Positions 1,301 to 9,647 of a stretch of 64,000 nucleotides of DNA are shown piece by piece. The DNA comes from Halorhodospira halochloris (lineage in GTDB: Bacteria; Pseudomonadota; Gammaproteobacteria; Nitrococcales; Halorhodospiraceae): contig NZ_AP017372.2 in the NCBI RefSeq assembly GCF_002356555.2, positions 1,426,001-1,490,000 of the forward strand, given 5' to 3'. Numbering within the stretch: the stretch's first letter is position 1; each line of letters starts with the position of its first letter. The position numbers and the translations under genes were made by a program. The notes under the pieces are model-generated. The model had not been told where the DNA came from and did no database searches. It saw nothing but the letters and a program-made list of their open reading frames with translations.

Positions 1301-1555
1301 TTATTTGGTTAAAATCAATTTTCCTTGGCGGGTTTGCTGTAGTCGGTACTCCTGCTCGCCATGAACTATGATCAATTGCCGACACCCACAGAACAACTCC
1401 TCGCTGCTGAACTTATTCGGCCTTTTACTGCGGCCGCATGCACCACACCCCTGACAGCACCCGCATAATTCTTCACCGCCATGCGCACATACCGAGGTAT
1501 TGGCACAGTCTGTCTTTACTGTAGAAAGATTTGATTTGTTCTTATGTAAATCCAT
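1301..1555 (-). CDS. hemP: HemP/HmuP-like hemin uptake protein with a Cys-rich N-terminal extension
   Basis: Small protein of 84 residues. The last 25 residues match the HemP/HmuP family end (LIIVHGEQEYRLQQTRQGK, then LILTK). Members are encoded beside TonB-dependent haem receptors and assist haem-uptake gene expression. The N-terminal half is unusual, with eight cysteines in about 27 residues (clustered as CGCCQGCGACG), which could bind metal or haem. The gene diverges from the TonB receptor at 1872, and the shared intergenic region contains two Fur-box-like sequences. The assignment rests on the C-terminal motif and this neighbourhood. Confidence 0.75.
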   Translation of the reverse strand: MDLHKNKSNLSTVKTDCANTSVCAHGGEELCGCCQGCGACGRSKRPNKFSSEELFCGCRQLIIVHGEQEYRLQQTRQGKLILTK

Positions 1556-1620: not shown

Positions 1621-1751
1621 CATGTCAAGGCTGTCCCAGTTCTTCACCAGATATAGAATTAGAGTAATTTAATGCGTGCTAGCGTTTTAATCGGTGCATT
1701 TATATTCATTTATGCGTAAATACAAAAAAATCCAAAGCCCTTATTGACTAC

Positions 1752-1770
1752 TGAATAATAATCATTACCA
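1752..1770. promoter_or_regulatory. Fur-box-like site upstream of the TonB receptor
   Basis: The sequence TGAATAATAATCATTACCA keeps most positions of the Fur consensus. It lies about 100 bases before the ATG at 1872, which fits iron-repressed transcription of the receptor. Confidence 0.65.
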
Positions 1771-1871: not shown

Positions 1872-4133
1872 ATGAGAGTGGCTAAGTTAGGATGCATTCT
1901 TAAAGTTCGGCATCAACAATACGTAACATCCAGCTCAGCAGTTGCAAGCTCTGGAACTGATCCGCGCATAAACCTCACCAACTCCTCCCTACCCGGGTTG
2001 CTGCTAGGCGCTGGAGCCTTTTTGGCTGCTGGCTATAGTGCCGGCAGCAGTGCCGACGACAACGCAAACGATCCCCTATTCCACCACGGCCTTGATCCCG
2101 TAACCGTCACCGCCCCAACCCGCAGTGAGAGAGCTCGCGATGAAAGCCCGGGCAGCATTGAGGTGATCACCTCTGAACAGATCAAACGCAGTGGTGCCAC
2201 CATGCTTGATCAGGTTCTGCGCAATCAATCAAGCATGTTTGTAAGCCCAGACGGGACATCGCACTCGATCCGCGGGGCGAAACGCGAGGATACCGTGATA
2301 CTGATCGATGGCCGCCGGGTCCTCGGCGAGCCGAGCCGTCGCTACGCGCTCAACCGTATCCCGACCGGACGGATCGATCGGATTGAGATCGTCAAGGGAC
2401 CCGGCAGCGTCCTCTACGGCTCCGATGCCCTAGGCGGCGTCATTAACATCGTGACCCGCCGTCCCGAACCAGGCCTGCAGGGGAGTATCGACCTACAGGC
2501 CGGCGCCCGCACCGAGGACGGCGAGGCTCAGCAATACAATGCCTCGTTCAATCTGCTCGGCGGCAGTGAGGACACCCTGGTGAGCCTCTTTGGCCAGGCC
2601 CAGAGCCGGGATGGCTATAAGGAGGAAGAGACGGGCAACGTCGGCCTCGGTGGCGACAGAACGCCACCATCCGACGCTCCCCCACCGGGCTGGGCGAGCG
2701 AGCTGGATGACCTCGAGGACACGTACACCATCGACGAGTACCGGCGCGACGAGGCCGACGTCTACACCATCGGCGGCTCCCTTGAGCACTGGTTCAATGA
2801 CCGCTTCAGCGTCGCGCTCGAGGGCAGCTACATGAAAGAAGAGCGCCGCCGTGACTATATCAACACCGGGCGCAACAACACTGCACTGGAACACAATGAT
2901 AGCTACCGCCCCGCCTTCAACATCCCGGTTAGCTGGCATGACGACAACCAGCGTTACGAAATCGCGGCTAGCGCCGATTGGCAGGCAACAGATAACCTTG
3001 CCCTGAACCACCGCATCTATTACAGCCGCTACGAGAAGGATCGTTTCGTGCCGGTTATCCCCTATCAGGACCTGGGCTGGGCAACCCAAAGCGAGAGTGA
3101 TTTCCGAGAGCGCGATATCACCCTTACTGACTTGAGAAATGAGTTTTTGAGCACATGGACCCCAGACCCAAACCACACCCTACAGCTTGGTTTTGAACAC
3201 CTAGATCACGAACAAGAAGACCATATTGACGGCCAACAAGGCAGCACGCGCTGGCAGGCGGGCGTCTTCGCGCAGCACGAATGGCAAGCCACCGACAGGC
3301 TCGATGTCATCTATGGCGCCCGCTACGACGATGCCTCCATAGATCAGGACAATACCTCTGTAGAAGGCGGTATCATCTACGCACTAGCACCACAGATGCA
3401 ACTACGCGCCAATTACGCTCAGGGCTTTAAATACCCTGAGACGCGCGACCTTTATGCCGACACCCATACACCTGCGGGTGACCTAAACCTCGGTGCCCGG
3501 GTCATCCGCGATGAAAAAAAAGATACTCACGAGCTCGACCCTGAGGAGAGCGAGAACCTTGAAATAGGCCTAAGGGGCAGCCTAGGCACCCCCAGAGAAA
3601 GAGAACTGCGCTATGATCTTAGCGCCTTCTACACCGAGATCGACAATCGCATTGAAAGGGTTCGCTATCGAGATGAGGGCTACAGGACCTTCTACAACAT
3701 CGGGAAATCCAGGACGCGAGGGCTGGAGGCCGCTATCGAGGCAGACTGGTCTCCTACTTGGGGTACGGATCTGAGCATAACCTGGCTCGAGGATGCCTCC
3801 TGGCGCGAGGTGACCCGCCAAGACCTGGATTACGAGTTCATCCCCAACGCCCCCGAGTTCAGCGGCATGGCCAGTATCCGTTGGCAGCCTAGAGAAGCCT
3901 GGAGCTTGCAGGCCAGGGCTCGCTTTACTGATGAATATTACACTGCCACCGACGATGATGAGGTTGATGAAAGCTATACCACCGTCGACCTCAACGCCAA
4001 CTACCGACCTACCAACTGGGAAGGAACCCGGTTTTACGCAGCTGTTGATAACATATTTGATGAAGGTAACGACTCCTCACTGTATGCTGATCCTGGACGC
4101 TTTGCCCGGGTTGGCATGGAGTATGAGTTTTAA
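1872..4133 (+). CDS. TonB-dependent outer-membrane receptor (haem/siderophore type)
   Basis: Outer-membrane gated channel taking up an iron source with energy from TonB-ExbB-ExbD. The 753 residues comprise a long N-terminal export signal (hydrophobic stretch about residues 39-57), a TonB-box-like VTVTAPTR segment near residue 77, and a plug domain to about 190 containing DGRRV and the KGPGSVLYGSDALGGVINIVT-type signature. A 22-strand-type barrel follows, ending in the outer-membrane sorting motif YEF. It diverges from hemP and is preceded by a Fur-box-like site, which points to haem or another iron chelate. The substrate cannot be fixed from sequence. An ExbB/ExbD pair is encoded at 54.8-55.8 kb. 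Confidence 0.9.
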   Translation: MRVAKLGCILKVRHQQYVTSSSAVASSGTDPRINLTNSSLPGLLLGAGAFLAAGYSAGSSADDNANDPLFHHGLDPVTVTAPTRSERARDESPGSIEVITSEQIKRSGATMLDQVLRNQSSMFVSPDGTSHSIRGAKREDTVILIDGRRVLGEPSRRYALNRIPTGRIDRIEIVKGPGSVLYGSDALGGVINIVTRRPEPGLQGSIDLQAGARTEDGEAQQYNASFNLLGGSEDTLVSLFGQAQSRDGYKEEETGNVGLGGDRTPPSDAPPPGWASELDDLEDTYTIDEYRRDEADVYTIGGSLEHWFNDRFSVALEGSYMKEERRRDYINTGRNNTALEHNDSYRPAFNIPVSWHDDNQRYEIAASADWQATDNLALNHRIYYSRYEKDRFVPVIPYQDLGWATQSESDFRERDITLTDLRNEFLSTWTPDPNHTLQLGFEHLDHEQEDHIDGQQGSTRWQAGVFAQHEWQATDRLDVIYGARYDDASIDQDNTSVEGGIIYALAPQMQLRANYAQGFKYPETRDLYADTHTPAGDLNLGARVIRDEKKDTHELDPEESENLEIGLRGSLGTPRERELRYDLSAFYTEIDNRIERVRYRDEGYRTFYNIGKSRTRGLEAAIEADWSPTWGTDLSITWLEDASWREVTRQDLDYEFIPNAPEFSGMASIRWQPREAWSLQARARFTDEYYTATDDDEVDESYTTVDLNANYRPTNWEGTRFYAAVDNIFDEGNDSSLYADPGRFARVGMEYEF

Positions 4134-4166: not shown

Positions 4167-4318
4167 GGAACCTCCAAAGGTCGCCACTGAGCATGGCAGC
4201 CTCGGTGAGGAGGGCTCTTGACGCCAGGGATGACGCCAAGAAGCCTCAAGGGATGGATCCGCGGTGTCCTCCACGCCGAGGCAAACATGCCCAGTGGGGA
4301 GTTTAGAGAGGCGCCCCA
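4167..4318. repeat. Palindromic intergenic element, degenerate copy
   Basis: A diverged member of the window's palindromic family. The core resembles GACGCCAGGGATGACGCC followed by a TCCTCCACGCC inner border, and the outer arms are still partly complementary (CACTGAGCATGG against the reverse of CATGCCCAGTG). It ends in the typical GAGGCGCCC terminus. It lies between the TonB receptor and the cytochrome gene, so open frame upstream of 4362 is repeat sequence rather than protein. Confidence 0.75.
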
Positions 4319-4361
4319 AAGCTACAAAAACCGGGCATTAAATTCAGCGAGGTGTTCGCTC

Positions 4362-4982
4362 ATGGATCACTCAAGATTAACCGCCGCAGCTGCACAACAA
4401 CCGCTACTGCGCAGGATTGCCGTATACTCATTATGCGCCGCTTGCGCACTGTTCAGCGCCGTAATAGCCACCCCGGCTCATGCCGAATCACGCACCGCAA
4501 TAGAGATACCCCGCGCCGATCAGGAGCACTGCCAGGCGCGGATGCGGGAATACCTGCAGATCACCACCGAAATCCTCTGGGCCACCCTGGATGGCGATAT
4601 GCAAACCGTAGAGGAGAAAGCTATTCAGGGCGTGCCAAGCCGATATCGGGAGGACTTAGTCGATAACGATAACGACCAACCCAACTCCACCTTAGGTCAA
4701 GGCAGAGGCGAACAGAGTGGCGGGATGGCCATGCGAGGCGACGGTCTAAGGGGAGCCGGCGAAGGCCGCAGGGGGGATGGCGGACCCCGCCATGAGCGCA
4801 TGGAGCAGATCATGCCGTCCGCCTATCAGGCGATGATGCACAGCATGCACGAGGACTTTATGCAGATGGCCAAGGATGCCCGGGATAAGGCAGACCCCCA
4901 ACATACCCAGCGCCAGCTTGCCCGGATAAAGGATAACTGTGTCGCCTGTCACGCGAGCTACAAATTCGCCTCGGAAGAGTAA
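4362..4982 (+). CDS. Exported cytochrome c'-like haem protein
   Basis: Periplasmic c-type cytochrome of 206 residues. A signal peptide ends near AHA, and a single haem-binding CVACH motif lies 12 residues from the C-terminus, the placement seen in class II cytochromes (c'/c556). The helical body matches that class loosely. The middle (about residues 105-150) is a Gly/Arg-rich, low-complexity insert that typical cytochrome c' proteins lack. The start at 4362 is preferred because GAGGTG lies just upstream and the signal peptide begins there; earlier in-frame starts lie in the repeat element. It sits between the iron receptor and the ferrosome-like genes. A redox role with iron is possible but unproven. 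Confidence 0.7.
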   Translation: MDHSRLTAAAAQQPLLRRIAVYSLCAACALFSAVIATPAHAESRTAIEIPRADQEHCQARMREYLQITTEILWATLDGDMQTVEEKAIQGVPSRYREDLVDNDNDQPNSTLGQGRGEQSGGMAMRGDGLRGAGEGRRGDGGPRHERMEQIMPSAYQAMMHSMHEDFMQMAKDARDKADPQHTQRQLARIKDNCVACHASYKFASEE

Positions 4983-4984
4983 AA

Positions 4985-5476
4985 CTAGCGCAGCAAATGG
5001 CGGCGATAGACATACATATGCACTGCCAGAGCAGCAAAAAAAGCCCAGCCGGTGACGGTATGCCAATACCGCCACCCCGGGTACCTAAACAGCCCGGTCG
5101 CCAAAACAACCACGAGGCTGCCTAGCATCACCTGCTTTGCATGCCGATTGGCTACCATCCGTGCCGGGCGCGACTTGCGGCTGCCCCCAGCGCCACGCTT
5201 ACCACGTTGAGCAGACTTAACCGGGCTCGGAGCAGCGTAGCTAACCCCCAACACCTGCTCTGCTACTTTTAGAATCTCAAGCTCCAGCGACCTCCCGGCA
5301 GCAGCTTGGTGATCATAGCGGACCACCGCCGAACCGGCCTTGGAGTTTACCCGCACATCAATTACATCATCCAACTCCCACAAGTGGTGCTGTAACCGTT
5401 GCAGGCTTCCAGGGGCGCGCAACTCATCGCCGCGTACGCGCAGACGACCGGGGATGGAGGCTACTATGCTGATCAT
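4985..5476 (-). CDS. HMA2-like domain protein with two C-terminal membrane segments
   Basis: The 163 residues begin with a ferredoxin-like heavy-metal-associated (HMA2-type) domain at about 1-80, which lacks the CxxC of copper chaperones. It contains the GRLRVR motif also seen in modified form in two other proteins of this cluster. A basic linker at about 90-110 is followed by two hydrophobic helices (about 113-130 and 138-158). It is transcribed away from the remaining cluster genes and its stop is 2 bases from the cytochrome stop, so the two converge. A role as membrane-anchored component of an iron-storage (ferrosome-like) compartment is inferred from motif and context. Confidence 0.6.
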   Translation of the reverse strand: MISIVASIPGRLRVRGDELRAPGSLQRLQHHLWELDDVIDVRVNSKAGSAVVRYDHQAAAGRSLELEILKVAEQVLGVSYAAPSPVKSAQRGKRGAGGSRKSRPARMVANRHAKQVMLGSLVVVLATGLFRYPGWRYWHTVTGWAFFAALAVHMYVYRRHLLR

Positions 5477-5773
5477 GACAAGCAGAACACCTGTTATATA
5501 TATATATTAATCTCTCTTCCTGGCGGTAAGATTGGATGCTTGCAGCTAGATTTGCAATAGGTATCATAGCAAGGTACAGCGAATAGGAACCTGGGGTATC
5601 CAGAGCCCCCTACCGGATCGCAAAACGACGCAACAAACATCCCAGCCAGCCTGTTTTCGCCAGCCAAGGATGTTGCTAGCTCAAGGATCAAGGACTTCGG
5701 TATATTGCATAGAGTTACCAGCAACTAATCAGAAGATCCCTGAAGTTAGTACCAACTGCCACACGGAGGCGAC
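5477..5773. other. Divergent intergenic region of the HMA2 gene cluster
   Basis: About 300 bases separate two divergent HMA2-domain genes. A (TA)n tract near 5500 is the most AT-rich point and the likely promoter region. I see no convincing Fur box, and no translated frame here has family resemblance. Confidence 0.35.
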
Positions 5774-6193
5774 TTGGCTAGTGACCATTCCAAAGCGCAG
5801 GCTTGTGCGCCAGAATCACCCCGACAGGAAACTCACCCGGTCTGGGAACTACTCTCTTGTGTGCGCATCGCTCACCACATCAGCGGCAGAATCCGCTTCA
5901 AACTGGAAGCTGATCTAGCCGCGCGCGGCCTGCGTCTGCCGAGCAAAGACTCACTCAAGAAAGCCCATACCCTGCTCCAGCAAACCCCGGGGATTAAATC
6001 GGTGCGCATCAACCCGTATGCGCGCTCCTGCACGATAGAGTACGATCCCCAGAGAATACCCGAGGCAGGCTGGAGTGACCTGCTCGCCGGAAACGCAACG
6101 CCCCAAGCAGCAGAGTTACAGCAGTTAATAGATAAACCCCTGCAGGAGAGTGCCGTTCAGGCAGTAATAGATGAAGCAATGCCCAACAGATAA
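5774..6193 (+). CDS. HMA2-like domain protein, TTG start
   Basis: Small protein of 139 residues built around one HMA2-type domain (about residues 28-100). GRIRFK lies near residue 41, and a second-strand segment (GIKSVRINPYARSCTIEYD) mirrors the same region of the neighbouring HMA2 proteins. No membrane segment is visible. The TTG at 5774 is chosen because GGAGG lies 4 bases upstream and no ATG or GTG in this frame is better placed. It is the first gene of a five-gene plus-strand operon ending in the P-type ATPase. Function is inferred as part of a ferrosome-like cluster. Confidence 0.6.
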   Translation: MASDHSKAQACAPESPRQETHPVWELLSCVRIAHHISGRIRFKLEADLAARGLRLPSKDSLKKAHTLLQQTPGIKSVRINPYARSCTIEYDPQRIPEAGWSDLLAGNATPQAAELQQLIDKPLQESAVQAVIDEAMPNR

Positions 6194-6210
6194 GTAGCGG
6201 AGGGATAAAT

Positions 6211-6555
6211 ATGCACCCGATAATACCTTTTGCCGCCGGCCTTGCGGTTGGCGCCGTCGCCCTCAGAATGATCAAAAATGAACGGACCCAAAGCAGCATA
6301 GATAGAGCCGGTAAGAGTGTCCGCCGCGCTACAGCCTCGGGGCTCAAGGGCATAGAGGGCGCCTCTTCCAAAGCCCGCAATTACCTTGAGAGCGATCACC
6401 ATGAGGACGAGGCAACCCATCATGGGCATAGGCACGGGCATGGGCATGGGCATAGCGCTAGCCATGACTCGGTGGATGCTCAGCAAAGCATTGATGCAGA
6501 AGAGGTGGCAACAGATAGCAGCAGTGACTCCTTCGGGGGCGGCGAAGATAAATAA
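6211..6555 (+). CDS. Membrane-anchored His-rich small protein of the ferrosome-like cluster
   Basis: The 114 residues begin with a glycine/alanine-rich hydrophobic segment (about 4-20), then an amphipathic basic helix region. A histidine-rich stretch at about 62-86 alternates H and G (HGHRHGHGHGH) and is a likely metal-binding site. The tail is acidic. GGAGG lies 8 bases before the ATG, 17 bases after the previous stop. It probably binds iron or another divalent metal at a membrane. The N-terminus resembles DUF5132/YtxH-type anchors. Confidence 0.6.
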   Translation: MHPIIPFAAGLAVGAVALRMIKNERTQSSIDRAGKSVRRATASGLKGIEGASSKARNYLESDHHEDEATHHGHRHGHGHGHSASHDSVDAQQSIDAEEVATDSSSDSFGGGEDK

Positions 6556-6590
6556 TCACACCCTCTTCGCGGAGGTTATGCGGAGGATCT

Positions 6591-6938
6591 ATGGACAACT
6601 CTAAACCGGCCCCGTTTGACTATCGGCGCGATTACAGAGGCTACTTTATTCGCGGCCTGGTTGCCGGGGCATGCCTTAGCGCAGTACGCCACGGGATGCA
6701 GGGCAACCCCCCAGTTGAGATGCGCACCATCGCTCGCAACTCCCTCCAGGAAGGCACAGCTATTGCTGCGGGGGCAAGGGCTGCAGTAGCAATTGCGGAG
6801 CGCGACTACACCAATGCCGCAGTATCTGCCTGCGCAGGCTTAGCTGGTGTCTACCTCATAGAGCGGATGCTGGGGGAGCGCCAAACAGCAAACCACAACC
6901 ACAAATCAACCGAACGTGAGGTCAGCGAAGATGAGTAA
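6591..6938 (+). CDS. Small Ala/Gly-rich membrane-associated protein
   Basis: The 115 residues show two glycine/alanine-rich hydrophobic stretches (about 20-35 and 70-95) that could form membrane helices, and a charged His/Glu-containing tail. No database family comes to mind. The gene lies inside the HMA2/P-type ATPase operon. Its last codons overlap the start of the next gene (ATGAGTAA), so translation is coupled. A structural membrane role in the same compartment is only an inference. Confidence 0.55.
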   Translation: MDNSKPAPFDYRRDYRGYFIRGLVAGACLSAVRHGMQGNPPVEMRTIARNSLQEGTAIAAGARAAVAIAERDYTNAAVSACAGLAGVYLIERMLGERQTANHNHKSTEREVSEDE

Positions 6939-7539
6939 AGAGGACGACAAAGAGCATAATCATCAAGGCTGGGGCGATGGCCATTACCAGCAGCCCGGCT
7001 ACCACCCTCACTATGGGTACGCTCATCACCAACCGCACCATTTCGGCCCCGGTTTTGCCCCTGGCTACCCTCCCCATGGCGGCCACCCGCACCCTGGAGC
7101 CGTCCCTCCCGGTTACGGCCCAGCCCCCGGTTACTATCATCCTCACGGCTTTGCCCATCCGGGCTACGGCCCGCACCACGGTTATCACCCTAGTCACTAC
7201 CCCGGCGCCAACCCCTTCTATCAACCGCATCCAGATCAAGGCTACGGAGCAGGCCAGGGCCAGGGTTATGGCTACAGCTACGGCCAGGGTGGATATGGCG
7301 CTGGTCAACAAGGTTGGCTGCAGGGGCTGCTCAACGCCCCCCACTCCCAGCAGTTTCTAATGGGTCTAGCCGTCGGCGCTGGTGCCGCCTGGGTGCTCAG
7401 CGACGAGGAGACCCGGGAGAAGCTAATGCGCGCCGGAGTCAACCTCTACTCCAATCTTACCGGTGGGGTCGAAGAGCTCAAAGAGCAGCTTGCTGACATC
7501 CAGGCCGAGTTGGACGCCGAGCGCCATAAGAATCAATGA
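6931..7539 (+). CDS. His/Gly/Pro/Tyr-rich low-complexity protein with C-terminal membrane anchor
   Basis: The 202 residues have two parts. Residues 1-130 are disordered and dominated by H, G, P and Y (repeats of the GYHPHYG/PGYGP type, then GYGAGQGQGYG), a composition suggesting multivalent metal binding or condensation. Residues 135-202 contain a hydrophobic helix (FLMGLAVGAGAAWVL) and a coiled-coil-like tail like YtxH/DUF5132 proteins. The ATG at 6931 overlaps the preceding stop, and the TGA overlaps the ATPase start by 4 bases. An in-frame GTG at 6916 is an alternative start. Confidence 0.6.
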   Translation: MSKEDDKEHNHQGWGDGHYQQPGYHPHYGYAHHQPHHFGPGFAPGYPPHGGHPHPGAVPPGYGPAPGYYHPHGFAHPGYGPHHGYHPSHYPGANPFYQPHPDQGYGAGQGQGYGYSYGQGGYGAGQQGWLQGLLNAPHSQQFLMGLAVGAGAAWVLSDEETREKLMRAGVNLYSNLTGGVEELKEQLADIQAELDAERHKNQ

Positions 7540-9647
7540 GCAACGGCGGAAGTTGGTTTGCCGAACTGCAGCCGCTCCACGCCGCTTGGGGCGGCTCATG
7601 GGGGCGGATTCGCTTTCGCTATCGCTGTCTGCCCGCTACCCCGCTCGCGGCAAAACGCATCGAACGCGCGGTCGAGTCACTTAAAGGGGTGACGCATGTC
7701 CGCGTTAACAGCAAGGTGCGCTCATTGGCGGTGACCATCGACACCGAATTGACCGATGTCCACACCCTGGCTAGGCGCATAAGCGAGCTGGAACCACCTG
7801 AGCAAATTATCGCTATACCTCGCGAGCGAGCACGGCGTGGGGGCTGGGGCAGAACCCTGCTAAGCGGTGCGGCACTGCTTGCTGCTTTACGACTCAACCC
7901 GGCATTCATGATGCCGCTGAGCATATTTACCGCCGCCCCGGTAATTGCCAAGGCGACTAGCGATCTGTTTTCGCGCAACCTCAGTTCGCATGTTCTCGAA
8001 GGGGTGGCAGTAGCCATCTCGTTGGGTCGAAAAGACTTTTTGGCCGCCAACGCCACCTCATTCCTCCTCGCCCTCGGCGAGCAGCTAGAAGATACCATCG
8101 CCCGGCGCTCGGATAACCTCCTCAAGCACCTCATGCACCCGACGGATAACGAAGTCTGGGTCGAACGCGATGGCGTTGAGGTGCTGGTTGACTCGCGCGA
8201 ACTGGAAACCGGCGATAGCGTTATCGTCGGCACCGGGCAGGTTATCCCCATCGATGGCACTGTGCTCAGCGGCATAGCACAGGTCAACGAAGCTACTATG
8301 ACCGGAGAGAGCCTGGCTGTTAAAAGGCGCCGCGGTGACAGCGCGCTATCCGGCACCCTGGTTGAGGAGGGGCGGCTGTGTATATACGCCGAGCGCGTAG
8401 GCAGTAACGCAGCATCTTCACGCATTGCCGACTTCGTCGAGCAGGCCCTGGCGGCCAAAGGCACAACGCAGTTACAGACGGCGCAACTAGCCGACGGCCT
8501 AGTGCCAATGGTGGTCGGCCTCTCCGGTGCCACCTGGGTACTAACCCGCGACTGGGAAAGGGTGGCCGCGGTATTACAGGCCGACTACTCATGCGCCCTC
8601 AAACTGGCGACTCCGGTGGCCTTTAAATCGGCTATGTACCGCGCCGGCAGCAAAGGCATGCTGGTCAAAGGAGCCGAAGCGCTGGAGCGCTTGGCCGAAG
8701 CCGATACCTTCGTATTCGATAAGACCGGCACCCTGAGCAGCGGTATGCTGGAGGTGACCGACTCAATCGCGTTTGACGCCGATTACAGCGCTGAGGATCT
8801 GATCAACCTCGCCGCCTCGGTTGAAGAGCACTACTTCCACCCCATGGCCATGGCTGTCGTCGAGGCAGCCGAACGGCTAGACAATAAACAGCATTTCAAC
8901 CACCAAGAGGTCGAGTTCATCGTTGCCCACGGCGTTGCGAGCGACATAGATGGCAAACGTATCGTAGTCGGCTCCCGCCACTTTCTGGAGGATCATGAGG
9001 GGATTGATACCAGGGACCAGGAAAAGCATATCAGCGAGCTCATCAGGCAAGGCAAAACCATTCTCTACATCGGCTTCGGCGGCGAGCTACTCGGTATCAT
9101 CGCCCTGCAGGATACCCTGCGCGCAGAGAGTGCAGCGACGGTCGCCGAACTGCGCCGACTCGGCGTGAACAAGATCATCATGCTCACCGGCGATCACCAG
9201 GAGCGAGCGCACTCCACTGCGCTGGAATTAGGACTAGATGACTATCGCGCCGAACTGATGCCGGAGCAAAAAGCCGATGTCCTAACCGAACTAACCGCAA
9301 ACGGCGGCAGGATAGCCTTCGTGGGTGACGGAATAAATGACGCCCCTGCCCTCTCCGGTGCTCACGTTGGGCTGGCCATGCACAACGGCGCTGAATTCGC
9401 CCGTCTAGCAGCCGATATAACCTTGCTCGAGGACGATATCTCCCGGATAGCCGACGCCAAACGCCTTGCATTAGCGACCAAACGGCTTATCGACAGTAAT
9501 TTCCGCATTACTGTGGGAGTCAACTCGACCATACTTCTTGCCGCGGCAGCAGGCCTGCTAAGCCCGGTTAGCACCTCGGTTATCCATAATGGCAGCACCA
9601 TTCTGACCCTGCTGCGGGCGCTTGCCGGACCGACGCAGCGTCTTTGA
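7536..9647 (+). CDS. P1B-type metal-transporting ATPase, FezB/ferrosome-like
   Basis: Membrane pump of 703 residues with the P-type ATPase landmarks: TGES at 256-259, phosphorylated Asp of DKTGT at D395, the P1B HP dipeptide near 433, and GDGINDAP around D598. The N-terminal domain is HMA2-like with GRIRFR near residue 28 and no CxxC. In the metal-site helix the usual CPC or SPC is replaced by SCA (C353) followed by LKLATP, so it is not an ordinary copper or zinc exporter. These traits match the P1B-6 group that includes the ferrosome protein FezB. Its start overlaps the previous stop (ATGA). Likely substrate: iron, by inference. Confidence 0.8.
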   Translation: MSNGGSWFAELQPLHAAWGGSWGRIRFRYRCLPATPLAAKRIERAVESLKGVTHVRVNSKVRSLAVTIDTELTDVHTLARRISELEPPEQIIAIPRERARRGGWGRTLLSGAALLAALRLNPAFMMPLSIFTAAPVIAKATSDLFSRNLSSHVLEGVAVAISLGRKDFLAANATSFLLALGEQLEDTIARRSDNLLKHLMHPTDNEVWVERDGVEVLVDSRELETGDSVIVGTGQVIPIDGTVLSGIAQVNEATMTGESLAVKRRRGDSALSGTLVEEGRLCIYAERVGSNAASSRIADFVEQALAAKGTTQLQTAQLADGLVPMVVGLSGATWVLTRDWERVAAVLQADYSCALKLATPVAFKSAMYRAGSKGMLVKGAEALERLAEADTFVFDKTGTLSSGMLEVTDSIAFDADYSAEDLINLAASVEEHYFHPMAMAVVEAAERLDNKQHFNHQEVEFIVAHGVASDIDGKRIVVGSRHFLEDHEGIDTRDQEKHISELIRQGKTILYIGFGGELLGIIALQDTLRAESAATVAELRRLGVNKIIMLTGDHQERAHSTALELGLDDYRAELMPEQKADVLTELTANGGRIAFVGDGINDAPALSGAHVGLAMHNGAEFARLAADITLLEDDISRIADAKRLALATKRLIDSNFRITVGVNSTILLAAAAGLLSPVSTSVIHNGSTILTLLRALAGPTQRL

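Follow-up and report, generated by a model that had tools for sequence, protein, structure and literature searches.

The question raised by this locus is what kind of system is encoded by six adjacent genes, here termed g1 to g6, at positions 4985-9647 of a 64,000-nucleotide stretch of DNA (the window) from Halorhodospira halochloris, which corresponds to positions 1426001-1490000 of the 2,834,560-base genome, a single contig, and has a G+C content of 54%. From the sequence letters alone the genes had been read as a ferrosome-like (fez) iron-storage cluster (the original prediction), and all of them were found where they had been placed. Ferrosomes, iron organelles of a class described recently, have been shown in few organisms and are known from Shewanella putrefaciens. 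Our analysis agrees with the ferrosome reading: the six genes probably encode a ferrosome-type iron-storage system, with sequence-level support from the family membership of the ATPase g6, which has an HN motif in its sixth transmembrane helix (TM6), from the conserved six-slot cluster, and from the fusion in g1 of an HMA2 domain to a DUF4405-like cytochrome that carries a His pair. g1 lies on the minus strand and g2-g6 lie on the plus strand, with overlaps at g4/g5 and g5/g6 and gaps of 17 bases (g2/g3), 35 bases (g3/g4) and 297 bases (g1/g2).

g6 was found by Pfam to contain the E1-E2 ATPase, HAD hydrolase and HMA families, and it carries TGE at residue 256 and DKTGT from residue 395. The SCA motif recognized earlier in the metal helix of this P1B-type ATPase lies at residues 352-354 in TM4, and an SCA-type motif in TM4 is a P1B-6 feature. 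The N-terminal domain matched HMA above its cut-off (26.9 bits, cut-off 24.8) and HMA_2 below it (20.5 bits, cut-off 30) and contained no CxxC, in line with the original description of an HMA2 domain lacking this motif. An N-terminal arginine-rich motif is a published FezB feature; in g6 it reads GRIRFRYR, follows a conserved His and aligns with the PGRxRxR of relatives, with a 4-residue insert common to the locus in the sister genome (L033). TM6 contains H684-N685-G686, and HN in TM6 is a P1B6 feature according to PMC9374683, in which CtpC is termed P1B6-like.

HNG in TM6 was present in all 29 FezB-type rows compared, in whose selection the motif had played no part, and HN in TM6 occurred in only one of the 22 other rows, a Rhodococcus CtpC-like ATPase with CPC in TM4. 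D[YF][SA]C in TM4 was also found in 29/29 FezB-type rows, a result to which selection contributed, since the scan and one of the filters relied on this motif; 28 of these rows had no N-terminal CxxC, the Arcobacter row having one. A maximum-likelihood tree split 20 FezB-type rows from 10 copper, zinc/cadmium and other P1B rows with support of 100/100, and the same split was seen in larger trees of 26 versus 21 and 29 versus 22 rows. In the last tree, g6 grouped with the plasmid copies of Azospirillum and Arcobacter (100/99). The sets had been thinned from 31 FezB-type and 19 other rows to 26/21, 29/22 and 20/10: L044 (the same locus as L040) and L002 and L003 (other P-type ATPases of the window's own genome) were excluded from the start; L018, L015, nine CopA-like rows and five FezB-type rows were dropped after the first tree; L138 had no open frame, and 21 further rows were removed before the last tree. 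Branch support in the three earlier trees (31/19, 26/21 and 29/22) came from the Shimodaira-Hasegawa-like approximate likelihood ratio test (SH-aLRT) alone. By motif and phylogeny, g6 is assigned to the FezB-type P1B-6 clade, apart from the copper and zinc/cadmium exporters, with other Shewanella species standing in for experimentally proven FezB in the label of that clade.

Within the source genus, orthologues of g6 were detected in two of the nine genomes searched, its own and the sister genome G002, perhaps that of Halochlorospira abdelmalekii (78% identity). With the own genome counted, an orthologue was present in at least 2 of the 369 class genomes (at 1e-92) and at least 8 of the 398 phylum genomes (at 1e-88), these counts being lower bounds because the searches scored the two to three best candidates per genome; a further class-level round of 48 genomes gave no nearer relatives. 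The nearest relatives outside the genus were on plasmids, with 57-63% identity in Azospirillum and 50% in Arcobacter. Scanning a species-genome collection with the TM4 region gave 475 relatives, the best 80 of which are the named loci considered below and include Vibrio, Photobacterium, Shewanella, Ferrimonas, enterics, Chromatiaceae and others.

An intact FezB was present at 76 of the 80 named loci, L087, L103, L110 and L114 having no intact FezB frame of >600 amino acids and being scored as misses. The strict order of divergent HMA2, HMA2, anchor, F4 (the family of g4), anchor and FezB was found at 56 of the 80 (56/76 with intact FezB). All 56 are among the 58 loci L042-L099, which come from Vibrio, Photobacterium, Shewanella, Ferrimonas, enterics and kin, and every one of the eight Shewanella loci fetched has this order. 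In the window, five slots are filled by profile, and the third is taken by g3, which had no significant profile match. On the Azospirillum brasilense plasmid (L148), six genes follow the window's order, with E values of 2.2e-8 for g1 and 6.1e-244 for g6, and its ATPase is 59% identical to g6 over 695 aligned positions. The Arcobacter cluster (L149) contains an HMA2 gene, a rubrerythrin/DUF2202-like gene, genes resembling g3, g4 and g5, FezB and, as a gene of its own, a cytochrome-like one. Since counterparts occur in both clusters, this organism is not the only one with the accessory genes, and, with the order kept at 56/80 loci, the earlier view that they are novel was not borne out.

Several other features of these clusters were noted. 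The rubrerythrin/DUF2202-like protein of Arcobacter (L149:5985-6668; both models below cut-off) is a possible built-in ferroxidase. At 43 of 90 loci (e.g., L046:4855-5331), from Shewanella, Vibrio, Photobacterium, Ferrimonas and a number of enterics, phmmer detected a small Cys-rich protein near the fez cluster; many copies end with KSPPCKRCPA...CKCA, and this fez-linked family gave no match in the first 20 kb of the window. In the sister genome, the gene L033:17646-18218, which lies downstream of FezB, encodes an FMN_bind domain (24.2 bits, cut-off 22). L087 and L110, which lack the intact FezB frame, are two Symbiopectobacterium records, as if the system decays there.

g1 matched PF19991 (HMA_2) at residues 2-71 (30.5 bits, cut-off 30) and half of PF14358 (DUF4405) at residues 105-162 (27.2 bits, cut-off 26.7), the latter being absent from the original prediction. 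Together with g2, which scored 28.0 bits with PF19991, just below the cut-off, and whose Azospirillum counterpart gave an E value of 4.9e-21, it makes up the two further HMA2 proteins described there, and the Pfam search of the whole 2.83-Mb genome gave three HMA_2 matches, namely g1, g2 and g6. The AlphaFold2 (AF2) model of g1, with a mean predicted local distance difference test score (pLDDT) of 81.8, contained an HMA fold (pLDDT >90), a loose linker and two helices at residues 105-131 and 138-162, and Foldseek gave HMA domains as its best matches, with a top E value of 1.3e-3 and none at 0.001 or lower.

His139 and His153 of g1 are 14 residues apart in the second helix (TM2). This spacing was present in 7/7 FezC-like proteins examined, a descriptive count, the seven having been chosen by position and by eye for the H...H pattern (L037 by profile). 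A spacing of 14 residues is that of the two-haem helices in b-type cytochromes, which suggests that two haems would sit between paired g1 TM2 helices. FezC has been described as a haem-b protein of DUF4405 type whose homodimer can provide the haem sites (PMC10979944, PMC11334425), and it has been tied to DUF4405 with measured haem b (PMC11334425).

The G002 counterpart of g1 matched DUF4405 at 28.2 bits, above the cut-off, and the two proteins are identical at 46/59 positions in the cytochrome part and at 35/75 in the HMA2 part. The fusion of HMA_2 to a cytochrome was also found in L033 and in Azospirillum L148 (DUF4405 below cut-off there), and the latter rules out a fusion private to the genus. 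A search of plasmids gave no g1 relatives at 1e-4; the L148 counterpart was located by its place beside FezB and then matched by phmmer (2.2e-8). With g1 and L033 as queries, the 398 phylum genomes yielded matches at three places in two other genomes; one of these places contains a stop, and the similarity lay mainly in the HMA2 part. These results support g1 as a FezC-like protein with a cytochrome half fused to HMA_2, which would bind haem.

The three remaining proteins are small and predicted to be membrane anchored. g3, with 11 His in 114 amino acids, is the His-rich anchor of the original prediction, and g4 and g5 correspond to its low-complexity membrane-tethered proteins. No Pfam family above cut-off was found for g3 or g4. 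The counterparts of g4 gave E values of 1.5e-12 in Azospirillum and 5.3e-6 in Arcobacter, its F4 family was present at 74 of the 76 named loci with intact FezB, and its AF2 model contained three helices at a mean pLDDT of 70, too low for a structure search. In g5, the start of which was set at ATG 6931 after the L033 counterpart, residues 6-140 are 15% His, 16% Pro, 24% Gly and 13% Tyr; the YtxH-like PF12732 scored 18.2 bits, below its cut-off of 37.5, and the Azospirillum counterpart gave an E value of 1.2e-23. At first, g3 matched only itself and L033, and the idea of a genus-only novelty was ruled out by the plasmid search, which gave counterparts in Azospirillum (E 7.7e-5) and, weakly, in Arcobacter (E 0.011).

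In its build, g3 resembles PacL1, which combines a transmembrane anchor with repeats on the cytoplasmic side and a His metal motif at the C terminus, is in an apparent operon with CtpC and forms membrane foci, as does CtpC (PMC9374683), the P1B6-like pump being gathered into these foci (PMC9374683, PMC13043812). In the tree, moreover, the Rhodococcus CtpC-like ATPase, which is encoded with a DUF1490 gene, was the sister of the FezB clade, a position that fits its HN in TM6 and the P1B6-like label in PMC9374683. Both points would suit a PacL/CtpC-like efflux platform: the ATPase would sit in a scaffolded membrane patch and export a metal (iron, zinc or another) across the cytoplasmic membrane, no closed compartment would form, and the small anchors would serve as PacL-like chaperones. 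However, a search with PF07371 (DUF1490, the PacL family) gave no match for g3 or g5 and an E value of 4 for the Azospirillum g3; homology to PacL is therefore not supported, and the resemblance is one of design only. The CtpC-like row also has CPC in TM4, whereas the FezB-type clade does not, and the one Rhodococcus locus has no annotated HMA2 or DUF4405 gene in an incomplete table, of whose hypothetical genes the DUF1490 one was scanned. We consider an efflux platform unlikely.

For a ferrosome-type system, we infer that the substrate is iron, that a compartment exists, that haem is bound and electrons flow, and that the proteins dock and form a scaffold. g6 would pump cytoplasmic Fe(II) into a compartment bounded by a membrane, and there the iron would be stored as a mineral. 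The HMA2-like domains of g1, g2 and g6, each lacking CxxC and having an Arg-rich start, would dock the parts to one another and would not use Cys to carry metal. Pumps may be collected in a membrane patch by the Gly-rich anchors g3, g4 and g5, whose His-rich parts may bind iron and pass it on. The cytochrome half of g1 would pair with a second copy to hold two haems b between the TM2 helices; through this haem pair electrons could cross the membrane of the compartment, and Fe(II)/Fe(III) would thereby be set as the store is filled or emptied.

Besides the stand-in labelling of the FezB clade, several findings weigh against a ferrosome-type system. The six-slot order was found at none of the 22 loci L100-L121, mostly Chromatiaceae, though many of them have anchors and F4; order conservation is confined to one part of the relatives. 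DUF4405 scored 14.7-17.1 bits, below its cut-off, in Azospirillum, Magnetovibrio and Arcobacter and gave no match in L035 and L037, and the relatives of g3 outside the genus are weak. At the divergent fez promoter (5477-5773), the best Fur box, scored against a 19-bp consensus, reached 11/19, which was equalled in 215/300 shuffles, and with flanks included it reached 12/19, equalled in 12/60 shuffles; at the L033 fez promoter the best was 11/19. Fur control of the window's fez promoter is unsupported, the box scores being at chance level, and a search of this promoter for FNR-type boxes and palindromes gave nothing beyond a TA-repeat. Among 62 divergent fez promoters, two rows of which are the same Vibrio locus, 34 scored <14/19; the other 28 count in favour of an iron link, with Fur-like boxes of >=14/19, up to 16/19 in Shewanella. 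The C. difficile fez cluster is Fur-repressed (PMC12574912), and Fur control is no universal definition of fez clusters. FeoB was within the flanks of 5/90 loci. The window's genome gave no FeoB_C match and has one ferritin-family gene, which is present in 9/9 genus genomes searched, so the organism need not depend on ferrosomes.

A further point on this side is that g6 exceeded the cut-off of the NCBIfam 'cadmium family' model TIGR01512, a broad P1B-2 subfamily model (350.3 bits, cut-off 313.5); the NCBIfam copper model scored below its cut-off, and the closest solved structures were CopA first, with CadA/ZntA-type ones behind. Best matches of this kind, which the original prediction had named as speaking against it, would suit an ordinary exporter of zinc/cadmium or copper that lies next to unrelated small genes, and they were confined to TIGR01512 and the CopA structures. 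They are not decisive, because none of those models or structures is labelled FezB and the tree points the other way. g6 has SCA and HNG where exporters have CPC, CPH and the like together with different TM6 motifs, and it has neither the CPC in TM4 nor the clade with ZntA-type rows that mark zinc/cadmium exporters; the tree split has 100/100 support, the six-slot neighbourhood is conserved, and g4-g6 overlap. On the tree and the metal-site motifs we reject an ordinary exporter as very improbable, though TIGR01512 passes.

Iron and haem genes adjoin several of the clusters. FeoB is beside FezB in L034, FeoB and FeoA were found by Pfam in L039, and the Cereibacter copy is surrounded by FeoA, two TonB receptors and FecR. 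In R. palustris, the six fez genes RPA2333-2338 (PMC12016538) fall at low light together with iron genes (PMC6879726). The HemP reported earlier near the window's cluster was recovered (PF10636, E 8.6e-16). Of the 'haem receptor' beside it, the TonB receptor was confirmed; it stayed below the cut-offs of the NCBIfam models listed, scoring 173.5 bits with the haem-specific one (cut-off 316.85), so the haem label rests on the neighbouring HemP. The Fur boxes that had been taken to support an iron theme held at the haem genes, where the box upstream of the receptor scored 14/19 (as good in 3/300 shuffles), and not at the fez promoter. HutW (anaerobic haem breakdown), above cut-off, adjoins the cluster in L033, with a TonB receptor (L033:7976-12439), and in L036, with HutX above cut-off and HutZ just below (L036:1104-3524; 220.6 vs 225 bits). 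Two lineages that are far apart thus have haem-use genes next to the fez cluster, a placement like that of hemP/TonB in the window. These neighbours would fit a cluster that handles haem or haem iron from the adjoining receptor, with g1 as a haem protein, but HutW-like genes were found at 2/90 loci and a TonB receptor of this kind at 5/90, and the incomplete gene tables of the Azospirillum and Arcobacter flanks contain no annotated haem uptake gene, which leaves a haem-linked system with very little probability.

Table 1. Features of the fez locus and its neighbours (window coordinates).
Feature	Position	Strand	Evidence
g1, FezC-like, HMA_2 + putative two-helix half-DUF4405 cytochrome	4985..5476	-	Pfam, AF2, Foldseek
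Divergent intergenic region g1/g2, putative promoters	5477..5773		Without Fur-like box above chance
g2, HMA2-like protein with Arg-rich HHISGRIRFK motif; TTG start uncertain	5774..6193	+	PF19991 28.0 bits, Azospirillum counterpart
g3, Gly-rich membrane anchor + amphipathic stretch + His-rich tail	6211..6555	+	Composition, Azospirillum counterpart
g4, small predicted membrane protein, F4 family	6591..6938	+	Azospirillum and Arcobacter counterparts, AF2
g5, His/Pro/Gly/Tyr-rich N-terminus + YtxH-like anchor + EELKEQ coil	6931..7539	+	Sub-threshold PF12732, alignment with L033
g6, FezB-type P1B-6 ATPase with N-terminal HMA-like domain, 703 amino acids	7536..9647	+	Pfam, NCBIfam, trees, motifs
SCA (residues 352-354) in TM4 of g6, replacing CPC	8589..8597	+	Motif inspection
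DKTGT phosphorylation motif of g6 (residues 395-399)	8718..8732	+	Motif inspection
HNG (residues 684-686) in TM6 of g6, P1B-6 feature	9585..9593	+	Motif inspection; PMC9374683
Fur-like box between hemP and TonB receptor (context, outside fez operon)	1751..1769	+	14/19 to consensus
HemP-like protein (context)	1301..1555	-	PF10636 E 8.6e-16
TonB-dependent receptor (context)	1872..4133	+	PF00593 + PF07715

Two further observations concern the window's genome. A cytochrome c'-like gene at 4218-4982 (sub-threshold PF01322) stops two bases from g1, and a relative of it is present at the Thiorhodococcus fez locus L118. A reaction-centre gene pair occurs twice with identical scores, at G000:C1:657013-658672 and 1788610-1790269.

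Among the papers listed in a search that did not extend to the two founding ferrosome papers, none visibly linked ferrosomes to Halorhodospira, Halochlorospira or Azospirillum; the system is of a known kind, in a sub-lineage for which the literature searched gave no publication. A complete, compact six-gene version is now placed in an anaerobic, extremely halophilic phototroph and its sister, and the same parts are carried by plasmids of Azospirillum and Arcobacter. The HMA2-cytochrome fusion offers a concrete idea of an electron route to stored iron, and HutW beside the sister's cluster suggests haem as one iron source. More tentatively, Halochlorospira, Azospirillum and Arcobacter might form a second ferrosome sub-lineage, partly spread by plasmids, in the first two of which an HMA2 docking domain without Cys is joined to a dimeric wire of two haems that ties a redox valve directly to the iron pump, while the organelle buds from a patch made of PacL-like anchors with His tails. 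If this were true, ferrosomes and mycobacterial effluxosomes would be two outcomes of one P1B-6 pump-plus-anchor design.

Compared with known systems, g6 shares the P1B core and an HMA-like N-terminal domain with CopA and ZntA (P1B-1/P1B-2) and differs from them in lacking CxxC and CPC, in its TM6 motif and in its separate clade. The mycobacterial CtpC-PacL1 effluxosome likewise pairs a P1B6-like ATPase that carries HN in TM6 with a small His-tailed transmembrane anchor, but it has CPC in TM4, serves zinc efflux, and its anchors have no detectable homology to those of the window; at the single Rhodococcus locus of this type no HMA2/cytochrome partner is annotated. The published fez clusters of D. 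magneticus, R. palustris (RPA2333-2338) and C. difficile (fezAB), as far as their available descriptions go, centre on a FezB-type ATPase with a FezC-like DUF4405 cytochrome and small membrane proteins, and that of R. palustris has six genes, as in the window. The window differs from them in the fusion of HMA_2 to the cytochrome (published FezC was compared by description), in g3 holding the standard His/Pro anchor slot and in a promoter without a Fur box. Closest outside the genus are the two plasmid clusters: that of Arcobacter (L149) shares the g3-, g4- and g5-like genes and differs in its cytochrome, a separate gene after FezB, and in the extra rubrerythrin/DUF2202-like gene, and that of Azospirillum (L148) has the six genes in order, all on one strand.

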